From assembly GCF_042242105.1 (NCBI RefSeq), contig NC_092017.1:19802432-19866431 (forward strand): a stretch of DNA of 64,000 nucleotides, in the 5' to 3' direction. Below are positions 19,296 to 48,872 of the stretch, piece by piece. Every line of letters begins with the position of its first letter. The first letter of the stretch is position 1. The translations under genes were made by a program, and so were the position numbers. Under the pieces are notes generated by a model that was not told where the DNA came from, searched no databases, and saw only the letters and a list, made by a program, of their open reading frames with translations. The DNA is from Pempheris klunzingeri (lineage: Eukaryota > Chordata > Actinopteri > Acropomatiformes > Pempheridae).

Positions 19296-29782
<10,487 letters not shown>

Positions 29783-33245: not shown

Positions 33246-33693
33246 TTGCAGTGGCCTTTCTAAAATGTGCAATCGTGAATGTTACTATCTTCTGTTATGT
33301 TAAAGGAGTTAAGATGCAGAAGAAGATGCTGACACAATCTACTGCCTTTGTGACAGCGACACAATACAGCAATTTCTTAGACTTGAAATCATGAGATCAG
33401 TCAGGTGGCTAAGCTCCAAAAGAATCTCAAATTGATTTGTATGGTAATTGGATACCTTCTCTGGAGAGTTAAGACCAACAATGGACAATTACCCAAGCGT
33501 GTAAATTCTTAAATTCTCCTGCATGAATGTATTGGCTTAAGGGGCCAAACGACCCCACAGCCTGATGACACCACATCAGACTTTAAAAATCAGGAGACAT
33601 CCTCTCTGAGACCACAGAGCCAATAGTGCACTATCAGGCCTGTTTCATTGTGTCCTGCAGTGTCTTCCACTGAAAGTAGATCTAAGAGCCAGA

Positions 33694-34696
33694 ATGGAGT
33701 ATCATCATGATTCAGACATGAATGAAGTAGGTGTCCTGTACAAGAACATGTGCATCGAGTCTAAACACAATGGTTTGTGCACAGAGGAGAAGGGCTCCAA
33801 GGACTCTGCAGATTCAAACAAGCTGACTCGCATCAAGAATGCTTATAGCACCATGCTGAGTGAGCTTGGAGAGGACGTCGACCGGGAGGGACTTCTACTT
33901 ACACCACTACGTGCAGCTAAAGCCATGCACTTCTTCACTAAAGGCTACAAAGAATCAATTGCAGGTGGGTACAGTCTTAAGGATGACAAACATTTCTCTC
34001 GTGCTGAACTAGATAATTGTCTTAATATATTCAAACTATATCATATTTTTGCTAAAATAAGTTGAAAACCGTATACTATACTATGAGCAAGTCAAGAAAG
34101 GCAAATGACATTTCAACACTATTGTACTGACTGTCCCATAGTCACATCATATGTTGAAAGCAGGTCTGCTCTCACTTATCATCATGAGGCTAAATGCTAC
34201 ATCCTAACTGATGTCAACATCACCTGTAATTTTGTCATTTCATCCTTTGCTCCAGTATTAATACAGAATGTTAAACATTTAATCTCCTCACAGATATCTT
34301 GAACGATGCCATCTTTGATGAAAACCACAATGAGATGGTGATTGTGAAAGACATTGACTTGTTCTCTCTCTGTGAACATCACATGGTGCCCTTCTTTGGC
34401 AAGGTAATTTAATAAAGTCATTCAAGCCTGAAAAATGATATTTACTGCATCTACTGATATGGACTTTTATGGACTTCAGTTTTTTTCTACATTGACAACA
34501 GCTGTTAATCTTAACAAATTGTATATGACAATGATCTTTTTTGCAAGAATACACATTAATAGGGAATATTGCATGTTAACACACACTGATGATGATGTTG
34601 ATGAAATGCTTTGTTTCAATGTTTCAGGCTCATATAGCCTATCTCCCAAACAAGAAAGTGGTTGGTCTGAGCAAGCTTGCACGGTAGGTGATTCAA

Positions 34697-35489: not shown

Positions 35490-37990
35490 ATGAACATGAA
35501 AACTATTTCATAGTTTATGTGTCTCATTATTTGCCTTATAGCAAAAATATCTAGATGGTATTGTGTGTCCTGCATGCTGTTATGCACTGTGCATTATACT
35601 AAGTGATACTACAGCATTTATCTTTACCGGGGATCATATTTTAAATGAATTTTGAAACAACTAATCATTCAGTCACTCAGTTCAATAACAGGAATCACAC
35701 ACAATCATGTACAACACAAACTATATCAAAAAGAGGCATCACTGAACTGCACTGTCGCCTTACATCAGAGGTATAACACGCTGCTTTTGGTAGGATTCAC
35801 CAGTGTATTGTGTGTTATTCTCCACCGTATTCAATTTGCACATAAATACACGATTCCTTCTCCCTGCCTGACATGCAAGTACATTTGTGCTGACAAATAT
35901 TCAGTATGACTACTACAAAATCATGACATACATGGTAGCATCATGGCGTCTTTCTAAGCTCTCGTATAGCTGTAAACTCTGAACAGCCAGACCATCACAA
36001 CAGTTGAGCACTTTAAATTTATTTACATGCTTGCTCAGTAGATTTTGGGAAACAATATTTCTAACCTCTTTACATCTAATTATCATGCTATTAAATTTGA
36101 TGCCTGAGTCACCACTGTATTGGGAGCATTTACTCAACAGCAGTTGAAGACCAGCACTGAGATGACATAAGTGTGTCATATCATCTGTAATTATGAGATT
36201 AACAAAGACACAATTTTTAAAACAAATGCTAAGTATATGTTACACATAAGATGTGGTAAATTGCCAGAACTGGAAGATTCATCCATCGCCTACATAAAAT
36301 ACGAAAGGATATGTTGATACTGTGGTCTTAACGATGTGTAAAATAAAATGTAATTCTAATCTAATCTAATCCTCTGCTCTCCTAAATATTTTGTGGCAAC
36401 TATTGTTTAAAAATGGTCAAATTCAGATACTGATTTGAACAGAAATGAGCATGGAGCTTTATATGATGAAAACATCCTTTTGATAATGTCTTTATGATTT
36501 CAGAATGTTTTGAATTTGTGGATTATAGACATGTTATGAAATTTATCATATCACAGAGGAATCTAGGAAAACATGAACATATAGTTGATGGCAATTACAA
36601 TAAGTGCAGTTTTTCCTTTTACAGGAAAGTTGCACATTTACATATGCTGGGCTACAAAAAAAAAATCAGTTTGAGATAATTAACAGATACATGATGATGA
36701 ATGCATTGCACATGCACTGCTAGAGGCCATGGCTCATAATAAAAAGGTAGAAATACATGTAAAATCTGTTAAAGACTTTCCATTAGAATTACACAGTATC
36801 AGACTGCCGAGTAATGACGAAGATGATTATGTATGACAGAATATTATTCATAAAATGAAAATAAAAATGCTGGGCATGGAGTAAAATTGCAGCGGAATAA
36901 GCAGCATGCTTTAAAAATAAATGTCTTTCCTTTGCACAACAGTCACAATTTATTAAATTATTAATGTATGGACCTAGTTCACTATAACAGAACCTGTATA
37001 AGATCGCTAGAACTAGGCTGTGTCATGAGCTGAATTTCACCAAAACAACAAGCAATATCTTACAAACCATATATTCCACAATTTGTCCAGATAACTAAAA
37101 TACAGCTAAGTCACAGCGTGCAGACCTGCATTTCATGAAAACCAGAAATCCAAAGAGACCAGACAAATCTGTTTTCTGTTAGTAACTGCTCTGGCTGGGG
37201 TATCATGGAGGGAGTAGGGGTGGTGGTGGTGGGGGGGCTGTGTGTGCTGTTTTGTCTACAGTGCAGTAACATTTTTTTAACCACTTACTTCCACACCACT
37301 TCTTTCATTATGCTGATCTGTGAAGTGGAACGCAACGCTGGCAGAGTTGAGAGGTCAGGGGTTCCCGCTGCCTAGATACATACAGTCTAATATTAGAACA
37401 TTTCCTTGATTTGTTAGCAGCATCTCTGCTGACTCTCGAGCACATGGCAACAGCCCGGCCAATAGGATTTCAGGAGATCACTAAGCCCCTTGCTCTGTAT
37501 AGCAACAGTGGCATCCTTCCCTTATTTATTTATATAGGAGTTTTTTTCCCACCGACTCATTCTCATGCTTCTGTCCCCCCACTGTGCAGCCACACTGTGC
37601 TCTCAAACTGTGAAAAAGAGTTACATTACGAAGAGTAGTGCTGCTCTTTTACTTTTACCTTTCCTTTACCTGCATAAGCTAAAAACTACATTACTTTTAG
37701 ATCTTTTTTCATATCTATATCATTTTAATTTTTTTTTTGTATTTTTCTTCTTTAATACTGCATCCCACAGATCAGTGGAGTTTTTTTTTTTTAAGTAAAC
37801 AAGTGGAAAATGTCTTGGAGAATGCTTGATTTTCATGAAGACATGTGGAGCATCGAAGAAGAGGGGAGGAAATACCCAGAGGAATGGCATCGTCAGAAAA
37901 TGTGGCACTCAGAGGGGACGGACACCAACCAAATGGAGAGGATCTTTAAAAGATGGAGGACACAGGAGGCAGTACGGGATAGGAGGAGTG
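35490..37990. other. gch2-pik3r2 spacer
   Basis: AT-rich and without recognisable coding exons. A LINE-like tail (ATAAAATGTAATTC, then repeated TCTAATC) lies at about 36341-36372. A GC-richer block from 37.4 kb has a CCAAT box (CGGCCAATAGG, about 37458). A 63-codon frame at 37810-38001 has no resemblance I can identify. Confidence 0.5.
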
Positions 37991-38157
37991 GTGGAGGGTG
38001 AGGAGGGGTGGAGGAACATCGGATGGCGTGAGGACCGAGGCCTGTGGTTGGTTTGATCTGACCCACGTGTGCGTTCAGCCACGTCTCTTTGCCGCTTCAT
38101 GGATGTCGATGAAACGTTTGCTTTCCCTGCTGTCCGGTCCGTTCTGTCTTGGCCCAG
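37990..38157 (+). promoter_or_regulatory. GC-rich candidate promoter/leader exon of the PI3K subunit gene
   Basis: A GC-rich island in AT-rich DNA contains a CACGTG E-box (near 38073) and ends in a good splice donor, GGCCCAG|GTAGGTG, at 38157/38158. The next strong acceptor downstream is CTCTCTCCCCTCAG at 40815, which starts the exon holding the pik3r2 start codon. I infer that the two are spliced together. A start codon at 38099 then opens an upstream reading frame of 55 codons that ends 7 nt before the main ATG. Confidence 0.35.
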
Positions 38158-40241
38158 GTAGGTGCGCACCGTCCCGTCCTGCCGAGTTCCCCGTTGATGT
38201 TTAATTTTTTCATTTCTGTTATCTACACCAGAAGTTGCCATTTTGAAACTTCCGTGCATGTTTAGCCTTCATATCTCTTCGTCATTCCAAGCTTAGGTAC
38301 GGGACGATGGAAAGCTTAAAGGCGTTGGGGAAATATGGCGTACATCAGCCGTCCCGCTTTTGGGACACAACTCTGATCGATAACAGACTACGACTAAATA
38401 TTTAACAAAACAACACAACACAAAACACATTCAGGCGTCAGTCATCAGCAAAATAAATACCTTCAGCATTATCTGCTGGATGCTGCATTGACGATTTCAA
38501 CTGGCTGACACTCAGTGAAAGTACGTGACATTTTCAGCAGAGCGCTGCTGTAAAATACAACATACGTAATGGGATTTTTATGACTCCAACTTAGCTTCTC
38601 ACCAATGCTTTCCCTTATGGATCCACCAAACAAATAATACTGCTTGAGCTGATCGACCACTGGTATTTATACTTTGTTTTGATTAGGTCATCATTAAAAA
38701 CTCAACCTAGTTTGGACACGTAAATTAACATAAACAACGTGTATTGATACTAACAAAGGTTAGACATTACTTGTGAGTGTTGAAAAATAACCCAGCTCTG
38801 TGATGTCCCAGATAGATGCATATTGGAAGTTTTTCTTTTTTTGTATTAAAACATGTAAAAATGGACTTAAGTGATAAAAATTGCAGGACTTTGTAAAAAA
38901 TCCTGTTTTATTAGCTTACATCATCTCAACAAGGACTGGACACCATGAGCAGCGGACATCGAGCCGTGAAGACTTCACGGCTGCATAGCATTCAAAGTAT
39001 TTTGATGCCGACGCCATTTCCAACGCATCGACTTTTGATCTGCGGTGTTGCATCACTCAGTAAATTTTGATACTAACATACTCTTCTTTTATAGAAACTG
39101 ACCAAATTCAAGTCATCTGTCTATTCACAACAACAATGGAGATAAAGTAAATGTAACTGACACATAAAACCTGAAAAGTATTAGTGGTCCAGATTTACGA
39201 GCAGAAAATTACACGTCAGTGAAATTAAATTATGTTTTTTAGTTAGAGTTGAATTAAAGCAACTATGTTCGATTAAACCTTATGCATTCTGATGGGATCA
39301 GATCAATCGTGTTTACAAAAAAAAAAAAATCTAAATCAGATCTCCTATGGTCATTTTCCTCTTGTAGAGCAGCTACAATACCCCCACCTCACATTCCTTC
39401 AATAGGATATTGCATTGTAAAGGGTATAGGAGGATAATAAACCGCTGACTAATCCCAGATGCTTGGGAGAGGAAGAGGATTTAGTCCCCCTGAATTCTTT
39501 ACCATGTAATGGGTTTCATGATATAACACTGTACAGTCATTATATAAAATAGAGTTGACACTGACTTCCCAAAAAGCAAAATCCCATGAAATCCAGGAAA
39601 TCCCAAAAAGCAATCTCCTGTACTCTCTTGGACATTACACGCACACACTTTTATCTTTTCACTTTAAGGGCGACGCTCGAGGAGTAGAAATTAATACGTT
39701 TGGTGAAAGATATACTTGACATGTTGTCGTTTTCTAAAGGAAATATTTGCAAGTGCATTTTCTCCCCCAAGTGCAGATGATCACTGCATTTTTAGGATTT
39801 TAAATGCTGATCCTGGGACAAATGAAATAATTTTCATTGTAACATAATCTACTTAAATATTTTTCCAGTCATTCTGTTCGAGCAGATCTTGTCTGTTACG
39901 CAGATATTTAATTACCAAATTAACTTCTTATATTTTTCTTAATTCTCTCTGGGACTTGATGAAACATGACTGCTGATTTTCTGTTTTTATTTAGCTTTTG
40001 GAATTCCTCACAAGTTGCACGAAAAAGTAGAAAAAGACATTTGAATGATGATGATGAGGATTGCATCTCTGCGTACAGCTTGGTCTGCAATTAATCTGCT
40101 CCTCTTGATCACAGTGAGCATTAGACCTTTTTGGCAAATGAGTTGAGGAAATGTTGATTGGAAAATTAACCAGACACAAATGTCTGTCATTTATCAATCA
40201 ATTCAACAGATTTAAGGTACTTCATCATGCAAAAATCATGT

Positions 40242-40262
40242 AAAAAAAAAAAAAAAAAAAAA
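40242..40262. repeat. Poly(A) tract
   Basis: About 21 consecutive A residues. No retroposon body was recognised upstream. Confidence 0.7.
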
Positions 40263-40931
40263 GACATATATTATCTATATAGTCTGAAACACAAAGGGGT
40301 AACAAATAAGGGCTTTACAGCCCCAAATTGCAAAATACCAGTAATGTGTCAGGACAGGGGATAGAGTTGTGAAACTGGATCTGCACCACTGATTCTTAAA
40401 GTATATCTGTGTCTTTTGTTGGTTTAGGCTTTCTGATATGAGATGGTGTGCAAGTCCTTGAGGAGGAAATCAGACAGTTGTATTTCGGTCTGTCTCTCTC
40501 CAGTGGGCTAACAGCTCAATAACTAGTGTCAAGGTGTCTGTGAGGCAGGCACTCAGCTGTTCGGTATCCAGCGGTGGTTGTTCTGGGTAACTCCCAGGTA
40601 TGAATCCCTTTAAGCCAATGACTGTGAAGCGGAACGGTGCTCAACTATAGAAAACTCCCACGGAGTATATACATTGGAAAACACGGGATCTACTGGCAAT
40701 GTCATTGCTCTGCTCTGTGATGAGGGTAAACCGGGGGTTCAGGCTGAGGAACATGCTCTACCTCCACAACACAGGGCAGCCCTGAACTCTGCACCGTCAC
40801 CCTCTCTCCCCTCAGCCATGAGTGTAACTGTAAGCTGATAGTATGTGATCTACAGCGCCGTGGCTCCTACCATCCTGCTGCTTCACCATCTAGATATAAC
40901 CTAGCTGGACTATTCACTCTGTAACGTGAAA

Positions 40932-43900
40932 ATGGCAGAAGAGGGTTTCCAGCTCAGAGCATTCGACAGCAAAGACTGCACAGAGGACAACGAGCTCCAG
41001 CCAGCTGATTTCCCAACGTCATCACTAGCATCCCTCCATCTCAGGGACGACGCTGTGGTCATCAACACGAGCACCAACCATATGGTGGATAATCCTGAGC
41101 CCCATTCTGTATTTGCTGTGATGATGTCATTACCGCTTAACCAATCACAACAGCAGGCAGACACATCCACGGCTACAAGGCCTGAGCCTTCATCAGCAGT
41201 TCAAGGTAAGATTAAAGGTGCTGTACTAAGAATTTTTAAGCAGCAATACTGATTTTTTACTGATATTATTATAAAGAACATGATGCAGAGCAAAGGTGTT
41301 GGCTTTTCTTAGGGGTCTTCTCAGCGTTTTTTGAGCAACAAAAGCAGCAGATTTCCAAACCAAACCACTGCTACATTTAATGAGCCTTTAGACAGTCTTC
41401 AGGCTTTCCTGTCCATCAGGAAATCTATCGGACGTAAATTTCTTCTTTGAAGGCGTGTGTTAATAAGCGTTGCGGTTACTCCGCTGGGTGATAGTAACAT
41501 GTACAGTGTTGTTATCAATGATAGGTGGCAATCATGCATGAAGTAGCGAAGTAAAGTTATTTCAGTCATCCAGGGTTCAGAGTAAAGTCACATTCATTTT
41601 TAGCAGCAGAGAGTATTATTTGACAGGCAGTTGGTACCATTTCACTGCCTGGATAAGCATGAAACATATTAAATAAATGGATATGAAAATAATATGCTTC
41701 TTTGATTTAAAAAAAATAAAAAGAAAAGAGTCAAGGTACAAGTCAACACCAAAGAAGAACTTTGCACAGAAAAAAAATCCACAGGAAAAAATAACTTTGT
41801 TATAATAATAAAAAAAATTCAGTGAATGAATTCAGTAAAAATGAGACAGTATTTAGTTTTAGAGGATAAATATTTCTGCATTTGCCACAGACACTGTTGT
41901 CACAGAAACAGTCACTAAGGGACTTGATTTCTGAGAAACAGTGAAAACATTTGTAACTAATGACTGTAACAACCCTACAATAGACTATCGTTAAATTATA
42001 TGGAGGAGTCTGCTGGCAACATTACAGTTTCTCAAAGCCCTGGGTGGCATCTTCAAATTCAATGCTTTGTATGACAGTCCAAAACAAAATGATATTGATA
42101 TTCTGTTTGCTATGCGAAAGACAAAGAAAAATTATTCAATTGATGAATTAATTATCAAAATAATTGGCAATTAATTTCAGGTTGACCAATCAATTCACCA
42201 TTTTAGTTCTAGAGAAGAAAAATTTCACTAACTCGAAGACAAATGGTGGCAGCTGGGCTTAGTGAGTTCAATACTTCACCTAGATTCAGGATTTATTAGA
42301 TGCTGAGCTTTTATTGGGTTTTCATAGCGGGCACGTTCTGACAGAGCTTCACTGTTTGCAGGCCCTCGGTTAATGAGTTTACGCCCTTTCTAATTTTACA
42401 ACAGCATACGTATGATTCCTCAAGCATACAGCTCTGGCTGCAGCAGCGATTGAATGCATCTCCAAACATGCCATCACAAGTACTGAAGGGATGATTTACA
42501 TCAACTGTTAACAACATGCCTCTCACTACACACGTGTGTCAGCGCATGTGTGCATAGTCACACGCTGGTAAACACAAACAAAACACACATACATGTAATG
42601 CTTTCAGGAAATGCCTGACGGACAGGTTCTCACCTTTCCCTGACTCTCTAATGGCACATTAACACACACACATACACAAGGACAGTAAACAAAAAAATGG
42701 ACACAGTGGCACATCAGCTCCTCTGCTTTAGGCTGTCATGGCATCTCGCTGCAGACAGCTGTTGTTTGTTAGGCGAGGCGAGGCAAGGCGAGGTCGAGCA
42801 CTAAGCAGCGCTGAGTCTGGCTGAGTGTGCCTGAGTGTTGAGGAGTGCCCGTTCTGGTATTTTAGGCAGTCAGACAGTGTCACCTGTCAGCAGACTAGTC
42901 TGGACAGAGTCTCCCACATGGTGCAAGACTAAGCAACACAACGATATCTCCCTCTGGAGTCCTTGTCAGTGGGCCAGCAGTGTGTGCTGAACAGCCACAA
43001 AGTGCAGATAGCCACGTACGAACTGGCCTCAACTGCCACCAGGAGTAACACTGGGTCGTTGTGTGGTTGATGTTGCAGAGCTCCTTGACACAGAGATGGG
43101 CCAAAACGACAGCGAGGCTCAGTCTCACACCCTGACAGCCTTCCTGCAGGAGCTTTCCTCCCCTGTTGATCATGATGATGTGCTTCCTGCCCTAAGAGCC
43201 AACATTGCCAAGGAAGCAGGTACTCTCCAGCATCTCTTTGTTCTATTTGTTAGAAGTGTGACGGATCTATTGTAGCTTAATCACTTAAATATGCTAAAAT
43301 ATACGACCTATGCTCTTACAGTGAGTGTTGGCACAAACTGCTGTTGGTTTTATTCCAAATGTAAGCATCCTTCATATTTTCGCTCATTTACTGCCTCGTC
43401 TGTAGTTTTTAAAATCAGAACTGTAATCCTGGACATTACACGCTTTTGATCAATAAGGAGGACGTGGCTATGTAACGAGTGAAAAAAGGATAAAAAGATG
43501 GAGACTATGATGGATTATCTTTTATGGAAGTAGGATTTTACACTTTGAAGAATAAATGGAAGCAATAAGCATATTTGAAACAAAAATAAGCCCTGATATC
43601 TCCAACAATAACACGTGGTAAAAATCACATTTTAATTAAAAAATATGATACTTTCCCATGCTTTGTTTTTTTTGTAATTTTGCATTTGTAACTGAATATT
43701 TTATTGCCTTTGTGGTCAGAACTTCAACCCAATAACAACCTACCCACAGCGATGGCAGCATGCGACTCCAGCTCTGATGATTTGTCTGATGCACAGTGGT
43801 ACTGGGGAAATATCTCGAGGTACTGAATATTTTCATATAGCATGTTGATGATTTGATGTATCACCTGCTAAAATAAGGAGCATTTATCTGTTTCTATTTC

Positions 43901-46900
43901 ATGCAAATTACTTTGAAACATTTACACCCTTTATTTTTGTGCTTGTCCAGAGAGGAAGTAAATGAGATGATGAGAAACACTCCTGATGGCACATTTCTGG
44001 TACGAGATGCTTCCAATAGAATTAAGGGGGAATACACTCTCACACTAAGGTAACTACGTTTTAAGATCTTATGTATTGTGAACGCAGCTGATTCAAAACA
44101 CGGCTCCATCAGGATTTTGGGACAAGTGAACATACTGCATATACTGTTTCCATACGTTTATTACATGAGACGGTTAGCTTGGTTACATTTAGTGAGTGGC
44201 ATAAGACTGTGTGTGTAATAAAGGTTTTAGCCTTTGAGCTGCTGGTATTGTAATAATTATCAGTACTCTATCTAATGGGAGGGCTATGTTTAACCCAAAT
44301 CAAATACATGTGGTCAGAAATCAGTTAATATTTCCTGATTTTAAAGTCTTACCTTAGTTTTCTGGTTTAAAAGTCTAAATTTAGTTTTCCTAGTTTTAAA
44401 GTGTAACTTTATACATTTCCTGGTTTCTATCTAATTTTAGTTGAATCATGACAGACTAGGTTTCAGATATAAAGCTTTGTTGATTAGAGTTTGGCGCAGA
44501 CTTCAGCGTTCAGCAACATAACACCACGTCTGCACAGGAGGCGTTTCAATCGTGTTTTTCCAGTCATCCGTCTCACTTCTATCTGAAGGAACAGATATGC
44601 TTTGACTTTAATCAATGCTGTCCACACTGTCTTCCGTACACTTGGTTCCTGCTTTATTTGCGTACCTGTACCAAAAGCTCGTCTTTGGCTTTAAGTCTAC
44701 AGGTTTCTGATTTGTAGGTGTGTTTGTATACACTGTATATTGGTTGCGCGTGTTAAAACTAATCCTTTCTGGGAGCAACACAGTACTGTGGCTGTGAACA
44801 TATGCACTGTAAATAGTAATGGTGGACTAAAGCTGCTCACTTGCTGCTTTTGCTAAATACAGTTCATTTGAATTGTGAGACGACACTGTGTGGGTTGGAT
44901 GTTGCAGGGTCTGCGCAGGGCTGCGCTTGGGTGTTGAAGACAATGCATTTACATCAGTGGTTAAGACCAATAAGAAATGCTTCTCATATTTCCATATCTG
45001 AAATTCATCACACACTGATCCCACAAGTATGTTGTTGACCGGCTGCTCCTGTCTGCATTAGTGTAAATATATCTTGCACCATCAACACATGTGCTAGAGT
45101 TCAGCAGGGCCTGTGAAATTTTTGGATCACAGACCAGCAGGTGAGATTTCCACTTGCCAAAGTGTTTCAGAAAGCAGAATATGTACTATGCAACATATTT
45201 GTTTTCTGGAGAAAAAAAAAAATCAAACCACATTCTGCCTCAAGTATGGCAAGAACTTATTTCTTATCAACAAAGCTTTAAATTAAGTTCTTCTTTTAGA
45301 GAAAATACACCGCCCAGCTTGTTTAATACTGACATGATAGCGGACTCAACATAACGTTTTACATCAGTGGTGCGAAAATCCCTCACCTGCATATTGTATC
45401 ATATCAAACCTGCCCAATATTAGATAAACAGTTATGATTGGTTCAGCTGGAAATCTCTCTGAATGGGAGGGGGGGCAGATGCATCTGTCAGAGCAAATAA
45501 AACATTTGACTACAACCACCCTACAAAAGCACAGAGGGTCTATTCGTGTTCTGTGTGCTCTCAATGGGACTCTTGGCTGCAAGTGTGATGGTTATTATGC
45601 TTTGACTTTTGCAGAAAAGATGGCTCCAACAGACTGATAAAGATCTTCCATCATGGGGGGAAGTACGGCTTTTCTGAGCCACTTGCCTTCCCCTCAATGG
45701 TGGACCTGATCCAGTATTACCAGAACAAGTCTTTGGCTCAGTACAACTCCAAACTGGACACACGGCTACTTTACCCCTTATCCAGATACCAGCAGGTGGG
45801 TTTATGAGGCCTAAATCTGTGAATGTCTGCGGTCTTATACCATATTATAATATTACTGAAGAGGTTTATTGTTATCGTTGCAGTATATTTGGTTGCATTA
45901 GACCTCATAATGGGCATAATCAACAATGTAGAAGTTCATTTCAAGAATGTTTGTAAAAAAATGTAGTATCAGTGGAAATAACATGAGAAATGTTGCAGCC
46001 CCAAAGCCTCTTTTATGTTAGTTTAAATTAGATTAAATGCATCATGGGAAAAAAAACATGGACGTGGTCCTAAACATGTTTTACATTCTCGTTTGTATAG
46101 CAGCAGGTTGTGATGGAAGTTGACATTGATGAAGTTGGAGAACAACTGAGGATATTTCATGATCAATACAAACAGAGGAGTAAAGAGTATGACCATCTGT
46201 ATGAGAAGTTTAACCAAACCGCCCAGGTACAACATCACTAAAACTATTTAGCAAATCTGTGTTTCTAATCTCTGTGTTACTAGTTAAAATGTTTTTCAGG
46301 TAAATATTTTACTGCTGGTTGCTTTACCACAACAGACTATAAGGCCTTGAATGTAAAAGTGAAGACATGCTTCCTTTGCTCCTCAGGAACTGCAGAGCAA
46401 ACGGACAGCTATAGAGGCTTTCAGTGAAATCATCCGCATCTTTGAGGAGGAGTGTGAAACTCAAGAGCGCTACAGCAAGGAATACATCGACATGTTCCTC
46501 ACATTAGACAGCAGTACAGAGACGGACAAGTATGCTTCCAAATACCAGCCTCGTTCCCCTCCCCATATTGGTCACTTTTTGCGTAGCCTATTTTATTTAT
46601 TTTCCTCCTCCTCCTCCCTTCTCCCAGGATTCAGAGCAATTCAGATGAGCTGCAGTCGAGGGTGGAGGAGATCCACAACAGCAAGAAGAAGTTGGAGGAG
46701 GAGCTGAGGAGGAAGGCGCTGGCTCACATGGAGGTCGACAAGAAAATGAGCAGCCTGAAGCCCAACCTTGTGCAGCTCAGAAAGATCAGAGATCAATACC
46801 TGCTGTAAGTTCATCCTCACCTTCCAGATTTTATAGTGGTGGACAAAGGTTTCTTGTACTTTACTGGCTTGCGATTTCACTTTTGGTCCCAAGCTGGCCT

Positions 46901-48872
46901 GTTTTCAAAAGAGTGAAGGTAGGCTGTAGAGATTATAGATTATAAATAGGTCTGATGTATGAAATCCATCTGAGATATGATAAAATGTTTAGTTGAAAAC
47001 AATCTGTCACATACCAACGACACAGCTGAGTTGTAAACAGAAAAAGCAATCAGCTGTTCTGTATAGCCACAGCTGTGGATCTTCAGCATGCTCAGTGAAG
47101 GATTTATGTGTCCGATATGTGTCTTTCTAGCTGACTCTTGCTCTTTTCTAGCTTCAGTAAAATAACATAAGCAGATGTAGCCTATTCAGGTTTTGATAAA
47201 GACGTTTACACATTCAAACATGACAAATACAGCAAGACTCAGGGTTAGACAGAGCTGCTGATATTATAATGCACAACACTCAAAAAGAGAAAAATCCAAC
47301 TTCTATAATATGACTGCTACATATTCTTAACACTGTAATGACAACTGATTAATTATCTCTGCCAGGTGTAACCGTGGAGGGGTCACATGTTTGGTCATCT
47401 GTGTGTGTGTGTCCATAGCTAATCTCTCAAACTACGGAGCCCATCAGCCCAATATTTTGATGGACATTTACCCTGTATCCTTATGACCTTGATCATTTAC
47501 GATTGAAAAACCTCTTTTATGGATCGGTAGGGGCCGCATGTCATCAACAACTGTCTCAGTTTGACATTACATAGCAAAACAAAATTTGGCTAGGCTAAAA
47601 ACAAGCCTTATTTAGTCTTTTCCAGGCCACATTTTGGCCTTTGCTGCTGCTAAAAAAATTGACGTCCATATATGGTCTCATTTTGAAATCAAGCATCGGT
47701 AGATTAATTCCATACCTGATACGTTGAGTCGCTAAATTTATGCCACAAATGCCACATGAATAAATCCCTATTTCTGTAACCTGAACCGGTGTTAACAGCT
47801 GTTTTGCTGAAGTCTGCTCCCCCATCAGATAGTATTTCCCATAGCATTGTCCTCCACAGTTGGGTTTGGCATAGCGGAGGCCTGCTGCAGATCTGCACTC
47901 TACTGAGGACACTTTTCTAGTCGGATTTTGTGACGTTCTTCTGTCTTGTTAGAAAAGCCTTCTGTGTCATCTTCTGGCATTTTGTCATTTAATATAATGA
48001 AGATAAGATAAGACAAAGGCAGGGGCAAGATAAGCAATAATAATAAAAAATAGTAGAAAGCAGCATGTTGTTTTTTAAAGTCCACATATTGCAGTCTTTT
48101 TACTGTGTTTTGTCCATGTTTCAGCTGGCTCACCCAGCAAGGCACTAGACAGAGCCAGATTAATGACTGGCTGGGTATCAGGAACGAGGAAGAAGAGTGA
48201 GTATCCTCATTTATCCACATCCACTGATCTTATTGTTTTGAATTAACATGAACAAGTGAAGACTGTACAAGAATATCTTCGATTTAAATTAGCATCCATT
48301 TTTTCTAGGAAATAATTATTAGTAGCTGTGAGATGCATGACATTTTTGGGAGAATTTTATAATTCAAGAATACATTTCTAAAGTAAAGTAACCCCAACAC
48401 CTCTCTGACATCCCTCAGCCCGTACACCCTGGCAGATGATAGTCATCAGGAGGAGAGGAGCTGGTATGTTGGCGGTATGAGACGGAAGGAGGCAGAGGAG
48501 CTGCTGAGGGGGAGGAGGGACGGGACCTTCCTAATTAGAGACAGCCAGACTCAGAGAGGCTCCTTTGCCTGCTCTGTTGTGTGAGTACCATTAAATTTGG
48601 ATCTTTAAGGATTTTAAAATTCACAGCATTTTGCCTCTCCCTAATCCTAACATCCTAACGTGACATGTTTCCTTTCATGCAGTGTGGACGGGGATGTGAA
48701 GCACTGTGTCATCTACAGGACGTCCACGGGGTATGGTTTCGCTGAGCCCTACAACCTGTACTCATCTCTGAGAGAGCTGGTCCTCCACTACCGACACACA
48801 TCCCTGATCCAACACAACCAGCAGCTGAATGTAACCCTGGCCTGGCCCGCTCTCAGCCAGCAGCCCAGCTGA
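40932..48872 (+). CDS. pik3r2: PI3-kinase regulatory subunit, p85-beta-like with degenerate N-terminus
   Basis: Eleven coding exons: 40932-41205, 43079-43219, 43720-43819, 43951-44049, 45615-45795, 46101-46226, 46387-46529, 46628-46804, 48125-48196, 48419-48580 and 48683-48872. They give 1,665 nt and 554 residues; all phases close. The product should bind and stabilise p110 catalytic subunits through the iSH2 coiled coil (about 266-437) and recruit them to phosphotyrosine motifs. The nSH2 starts at Trp165 ([11 protein letters not shown]) with FLVRD Arg190. The cSH2 starts at Trp453 with FLIRD Arg478 and ends VTLAWP. The first exon begins [11 protein letters not shown], aligning with the p85-beta start MAGPEGFQYRAL, and keeps SLASLHL against SLVALGF. 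The ALYDY motif and the GW and GDFPGTYV segments of the SH3 are gone. Exon 2 (ELLDTEM...[11 protein letters not shown]) matches one piece of the p85 RhoGAP domain. p85-beta has 728 residues and p55-gamma 461. Adjacency to ifi30 supports pik3r2; a teleost duplicate or unrecognised extra exons remain possible. Confidence 0.88.
47350..47950. other. Probable repeat material in intron 8 of pik3r2
   Basis: A 1.3-kb intron holds a TG tract and a long minus-strand frame (47595-47912, 105 codons). I recognise no domain in it. The repeat-like wording at 47400-47560 suggests a decayed transposable element rather than a nested gene. Confidence 0.35.

Follow-up and report, generated by a model that had tools for sequence, protein, structure and literature searches.

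Erosion in place of the N-terminal exons of a duplicate pik3r2 gene in Pempheris klunzingeri probably left a p55-like PI3K regulatory subunit

Mammals obtain their short PI3K regulatory subunits from other promoters or from a separate gene. p55-alpha and p50-alpha arise from internal promoters of the intact PIK3R1 gene, while p55-gamma is encoded by PIK3R3 and has a first exon of its own. The gene described here (hereafter W) is like p55-alpha and p50-alpha in specifying nSH2, iSH2 and cSH2 with a short N-terminal tail, and like p55-gamma in being a separate gene for a short subunit; unlike in p55-alpha and p50-alpha, however, its first coding exon is still the SH3 exon. Passages of PMC7458397 on the short isoforms state that these retain the p110 interface, that dimers formed through the N terminus do not apply to them, and that the BH and SH3 domains are required for the interaction with PTEN. 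Duplicates of pik3r2 in teleosts have been known since 2015, when 13 teleosts and gar were screened and 20 of 62 genes were found to be kept as duplicates in most lineages; the main-text sections of that study imply that both pik3r2 copies were retained in most of the 13 teleosts, give pik3r2b of medaka as a probable recent loss, report positive selection on pik3r2 on the branch at the teleost base and compare the expression of the two copies in cichlids (PMC4632047). W is likewise a p85-beta duplicate beside an intact copy, and tree and neighbouring gene agree on this. It has in addition lost SH3 and RhoGAP, which main-text sections 11 to 13 of PMC4632047 do not describe, and no description of such a loss in a teleost pik3r2 copy was found in the parts of the literature that our search covered.

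W occupies positions 40932 to 48872 of the window (the whole stretch of 64,000 nucleotides that was analyzed), on contig C6 of a 646-Mb genome of 439 contigs. The gene model, inferred from sequence, comprises 11 coding exons and 553 codons; splice sites are GT-AG throughout, the phases join without a stop, and the frame is open. Introns 1 and 2 measure 1873 and 500 bases. An initial annotation had been confined to 40932 to 43819, whose limits coincide with the start codon and the last base of exon 3. The features are as follows.

40708..40786, forward strand: upstream element, 75% identical to the DNA preceding the SH3 exon of the sister gene D
40932..41205, forward strand: exon 1, start codon and eroded SH3 exon, codons 1-91
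43079..43219, forward strand: exon 2, eroded lone RhoGAP exon, phase 1 to 1
43720..43819, forward strand: exon 3, linker without a PPKPPKP-type motif, then start of nSH2
43951..44049, forward strand: exon 4, nSH2 with the FLVR arginine
45615..45795, forward strand: exon 5, second part of nSH2
46104..46226, forward strand: exon 6, first part of iSH2; a CAGCAG acceptor leaves one codon ambiguous
46387..46529, forward strand: exon 7, iSH2
46628..46804, forward strand: exon 8, iSH2, with N564S and D569N (p85-alpha numbering)
48125..48196, forward strand: exon 9, end of iSH2
48419..48580, forward strand: exon 10, cSH2 with the FLIR arginine and a one-residue insertion also present in D
48683..48872, forward strand: exon 11, end of cSH2 and stop codon
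59122..59648, forward strand: exons of a GILT (IFI30-type) gene, synteny marker

Two other genes lie upstream of W on the same strand, namely a KANK-type gene with a KN motif and ankyrin repeats (19802-27349) and an exon of GTP cyclohydrolase I (33610-34062). A genome-wide iSH2 search gave 18 matches, which fall into six genes and one fragment. Those besides W are listed here.

B, contig C19: pik3r1-type, SH3 and RhoGAP present
C, contig C7: pik3r1-type, SH3 and RhoGAP present
D, contig C15, 5.39-5.41 Mb: pik3r2-type, sister of W, SH3 and RhoGAP intact
A, contig C6, 27.6 Mb: pik3r3-type
E, contig C15, 3.81 Mb: pik3r3-type
F, contig C17: iSH2 fragment

The tree was built from the SH2-iSH2 part of the paralogues and two PDB sequences, which we take to be human; the p85-beta row (PDB 3mtt) holds the iSH2 only. 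It placed W and D with p85-beta (98/97) and A with E (100/98), and paired W with D at 86/86, which falls short of the program's threshold of 95/80. W and E are marked by the program as long rows of unsure placement, their branches measuring 0.43 (against 0.082 for D) and 0.41 (against 0.041 for A). As a query, the iSH2 of W scored 208.6 bits against p85-beta and 196.8 bits against the best alpha chain, and the one-residue insertion in cSH2 is common to W and D. The GILT gene about 10 kb downstream of W (Pfam 105.6 bits for the window copy) has only one other match in the genome, at 52% over 67 residues, and this lies about 10 kb downstream of D on C15; in human, too, IFI30 adjoins PIK3R2. C6 and C15 each hold one pik3r2-type, one pik3r3-type and one GILT-type gene, a matching of gene sets that is expected from the teleost duplication. 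The KANK open reading frame was tried as a second synteny marker and dropped: it has 10 matches, and the nearest to D on C15 is still 1.8 Mb off. W is thus one of two pik3r2 (p85-beta) copies, and the pair most likely dates from the teleost genome duplication. D is the full-length pik3r2 that the initial annotation had proposed to look for elsewhere in the genome, and since it is intact alongside W, the short form is derived rather than ancestral, as judged within this genome.

Exon 1 descends from an SH3 exon that can no longer be recognized as such. Searched by tblastn against the 39-kb locus of D only, it matches the SH3 exon there at E 6.5e-7 (35% over 106 columns), codons 1-87 of its 91 aligning with the first coding exon of D, which holds the SH3 domain. 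The alignment score of 88 was equalled in none of 5000 residue shuffles (maximum 50), and the exon ends in CAA-G/gta (exon/intron) in both genes. Because a whole-genome search with exons 1 and 2 at E <= 1 finds only W's own two exons, the homology of both rests on the one-locus comparison with D together with exon order and exon borders; on that basis, exon 1 is a homologue of the p85 SH3 exon. Of 31 SH3 columns that do not vary among the four intact SH3 exons, those of A, B, C and D, W keeps 12 and is gapped at 5. Its ALYDY-type start has changed, it has no GW pair, and VDNPEP replaces GDFPGT; the absence of the ALYDY aromatics, of the conserved Trp and of the GDFPGTYV end had been noted at the outset. 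Pfam finds no SH3 in the W protein at E <= 1 or in exon 1 alone at E <= 10, and neither exon 1 nor exon 2 alone matches any family at E <= 10. As controls, the SH3 exon of paralogue A alone scores 26.9 bits, and the joined N-terminal exons of D score 73.4 bits for RhoGAP and 23.3 bits for SH3. The description of exon 1 as a vestigial SH3 exon therefore holds, given the match to D, the 12 columns kept and the missing Pfam domain. Coding potential was highest in the true frame among the six (2.0), but codon usage adds little evidence for exon 1, as 29 of 139 open non-coding frames of 273 bases score equally high. A single-sequence structure model of exon 1 alone gave a pLDDT of 48; it has no control and so decides nothing.

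Exon 2 matches one RhoGAP exon of D (tblastn E 6e-4, 29% over 45, again within the 39-kb locus only), with an alignment score of 56 that none of 5000 residue shuffles equalled (maximum 39), and in both genes the exon has phase 1 at either border. Judged by these matches it is a homologue of one RhoGAP exon. The RhoGAP family is absent at E <= 1 from the W protein and at E <= 10 from exon 2 alone; as a control, the matching exon of D alone scores 22.0 bits, slightly below the curated Pfam cut-off of 24.5. The coding-potential score of exon 2 is 14.7, equalled by 33 of 2172 open non-coding frames. Its reading as a single RhoGAP fragment thus stands, although the proposed pairing of its ELLD with QLLD does not. 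The QLLD stretch belongs to p85-alpha, and the exon borders contradict the pairing: the counterpart of exon 2 in D is the E-SDMVQND...YLRDLPSPV exon, and in paralogue B the counterpart of the QLLD stretch sits one exon earlier than the match of exon 2.

Compared with B and C, W misses four N-terminal exons, a pair on either side of the RhoGAP exon that remains; three of the four were resolved in D, and the last was not found there. Two lost exons for which both borders could be read in D run from phase 1 to phase 1, and because of this their loss leaves the frame unshifted. Introns 1 and 2 and positions 36000-40931 were probed with 12 exon peptides of the paralogues and, as controls, with the same 12 reversed. 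The best forward hit (E 0.050) was at the level of the best reversed one (E 0.069), in agreement with the earlier view that no further RhoGAP exons are visible around exon 2. The exon 3 linker preceding nSH2 has no PPKPPKP-type motif. All three features of the p85 form, SH3, RhoGAP (BH) and the linker proline-rich motif, are absent from W.

Several features place this erosion at the original site of the N terminus. The 80 bases that end about 145 bases ahead of W's start codon are 75% identical to the DNA before the start codon of D (54.0 bits, where 100 shuffles reached 28.3 at most). Since this upstream DNA, the start region, the intron phases and the exon ends, including the SH3 exon end described above, all match D, the decay is best read as having occurred in place, as had been suggested. 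The same region holds a short upstream frame (window 40699-40785) of 28 codons in W and 31 in D, with an identical stop position in both pik3r2 copies; the two frames share NRG-x-(K/R)-LR and NTGQ, and the pattern of their differences, 9/5/8 by codon position in 25 codons, gives no sign of coding.

For each branch we counted changes by codon position, polarized against A, B and C, with sites lacking a majority among these three dropped. In exon 1 the W branch changed at 21/69, 27/78 and 18/60 sites of positions 1, 2 and 3 (positions 1 and 2 against 3, p 0.75), and the D branch at 5/69, 5/78 and 12/60 (p 0.011). In the SH2-iSH2 part the W branch shows 45/374, 47/371 and 66/344 (p 0.004), and the D branch 22, 15 and 56 changes over W's sites (374, 371 and 344). 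Counts for exon 2 (W 3/22, 11/37 and 9/25; D 1, 2 and 3) are too few to use. Amino acid constraint is therefore not visible in exon 1 on the W branch, while the SH2-iSH2 part is constrained; exon 1 can be called neutral only approximately, as saturation lowers third-position counts and no-majority sites are dropped. A pairwise comparison of W and D over exons 1 and 2 does show a difference (108/262 at positions 1 and 2, 85/131 at position 3; p 1e-5), but this mixes in the constraint on D. A contrast between exon 1 and the SH2-iSH2 part is seen in the branch counts, where dN/dS had been suggested as the test for the N terminus; NG86 and YN00 yielded no usable ratio. NG86 dN was 0.53 for exon 1, 0.65 for exon 2 and 0.22 for the SH2-iSH2 part, and dS reached saturation in both exons and 1.59 in the SH2-iSH2 part. 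A neutral simulation of exons 1 and 2, in which 0.7% of 5000 runs were stop-free, assumed one-branch divergence and no indels; the branch counts replace it.

The remainder of the protein carries the domains of a regulatory subunit. Pfam gives 198.3 bits for iSH2 and 138.8 bits for SH2 across two stretches, the closest PDB entry is p85-alpha, matched over chain residues 307-722, and the phosphotyrosine-binding arginines R358 and R649, one per SH2 domain, are preserved, which confirms the presence of nSH2, iSH2 and cSH2 first noted from the sequence. The iSH2 residues F487, E489 and F494 are also preserved. Beyond what had been noted, this part is fast evolving, and its changes include the p110 interface. 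W differs at 35 of the 196 columns invariant in the other rows, one difference being a gap (nSH2 9/58, iSH2 19/81, linker 0/1, cSH2 7/56); by the same measure E differs at 30/191, A at 7, D at 3/164, and B and C at none. N564S and D569N affect residues that are identical in A to E and in the PDB p85-alpha and p85-beta sequences; D569, like N564, is a mutation site. N564, at the C2-iSH2 interface where iSH2 meets the C2 domain of p110, is the commonest site of PIK3R1 point mutation in cancer, where a change to K or D is activating, according to PMC5868324; the serine of W is neither change. In the simulations described in part of PMC10971029, N564D and N564K differ in their effects, and the direction is not uniform. 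We do not take the two changes as proof of selection, given that 23% of the invariant iSH2 columns are altered anyway, and two such changes amid that background are not improbable. They may nevertheless weaken the inhibition of p110. Together with the loss of the PTEN-supporting SH3 and RhoGAP parts, they raise the rather doubtful prospect that W is a subunit with weakened built-in inhibition, a naturally more active regulator.

We consider it quite likely that W, a duplicate pik3r2 whose N terminus was eroded in place, works as a p55-like subunit. The sequence shows that four N-terminal exons present in B and C are gone, and that the SH3 exon and one RhoGAP exon are left, open yet unrecognizable. 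The simplest reading is that exon 1 persists because translation starts in it and its frame has to stay open: a stop or frameshift there would destroy the useful part, while its residues may drift freely. Such a protein would engage p110 with its iSH2 and phosphotyrosine with its two SH2 domains, but would lack the contacts made by SH3, RhoGAP and the proline motif (N-terminal dimerization, binding of PTEN).

Two of the points against this explanation, the long branch of 0.43 and the 35 changed invariant columns, are also what a gene in the course of being lost would show. That W as a whole is decaying, a pseudogene in the making whose frame has not yet been broken, would further suit the neutral-looking exon 1 and the loss of pik3r2b reported for medaka in the part of PMC4632047 cited above, but all 11 of its 11 coding exons are open over 553 codons with GT-AG sites, the SH2-iSH2 part is still constrained on the W branch (p 0.004), and the phosphotyrosine-pocket arginines are preserved, so that we regard it as unlikely. 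Slightly less probable again is that selection has remade exons 1 and 2 into a novel N-terminal tail, probably disordered, that has a partner of its own. The frame and splice sites are preserved, a mixture of constraint and positive selection could make positions 1 and 2 change as often as position 3, and PMC4632047, in the portion already referred to, places positive selection on pik3r2 at the teleost base; against this, there is no excess over third positions, and no Pfam family is matched. It is very improbable that N-terminal exons were missed and a full p85 is made from exons elsewhere, even though the family has distant exons (the SH3 exon of A sits about 170 kb upstream of its SH2 exons), because exon 1 of W is the SH3 exon itself, the introns hold no trace, and whole-genome queries with the SH3-RhoGAP regions of D and B place none in or near the window among the best candidates scored.

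The other loci show further variation in N-terminal exons. Paralogue A carries a p85-type SH3 exon and a RhoGAP exon in the orientation of its SH2 exons, lying about 170 and 93 kb upstream of them, and in addition a p55-gamma-type first exon (the places are C6:27423309-27423614, C6:27501338-27501487 and about C6:27586384); from this arrangement, A may make both p85-gamma and p55-gamma. A probe with the p55-gamma N terminus found that exon in A (67%) and, weakly, in E (C15:3.81 Mb; E 0.034), and in window positions 30001-52000 no such exon but only an 8-residue proline match. The branch of E is ten times that of A, and no SH3 exon was found within the 40 kb examined there. F (C17:23808225-23808338), a lone iSH2 fragment about 18 kb from the contig end, is 96% identical to E over 26 residues and is probably a partial copy. 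In paralogue C (C7:3.557 Mb) the SH3 exon is interrupted behind FNETTQ by what seems to be an intron missing from B and D.

If the iSH2 changes do weaken inhibition, W would be a natural, tolerated counterpart of a cancer hotspot. Under the reading that we prefer, of erosion in place with p55-like function, W would be a clean case of a multidomain signaling gene that erosion following duplication has shortened, and one in which the intact sister, the common upstream DNA and the leftover exons can all be read within one genome, and it suggests how an exon can persist purely as the carrier of a start codon.
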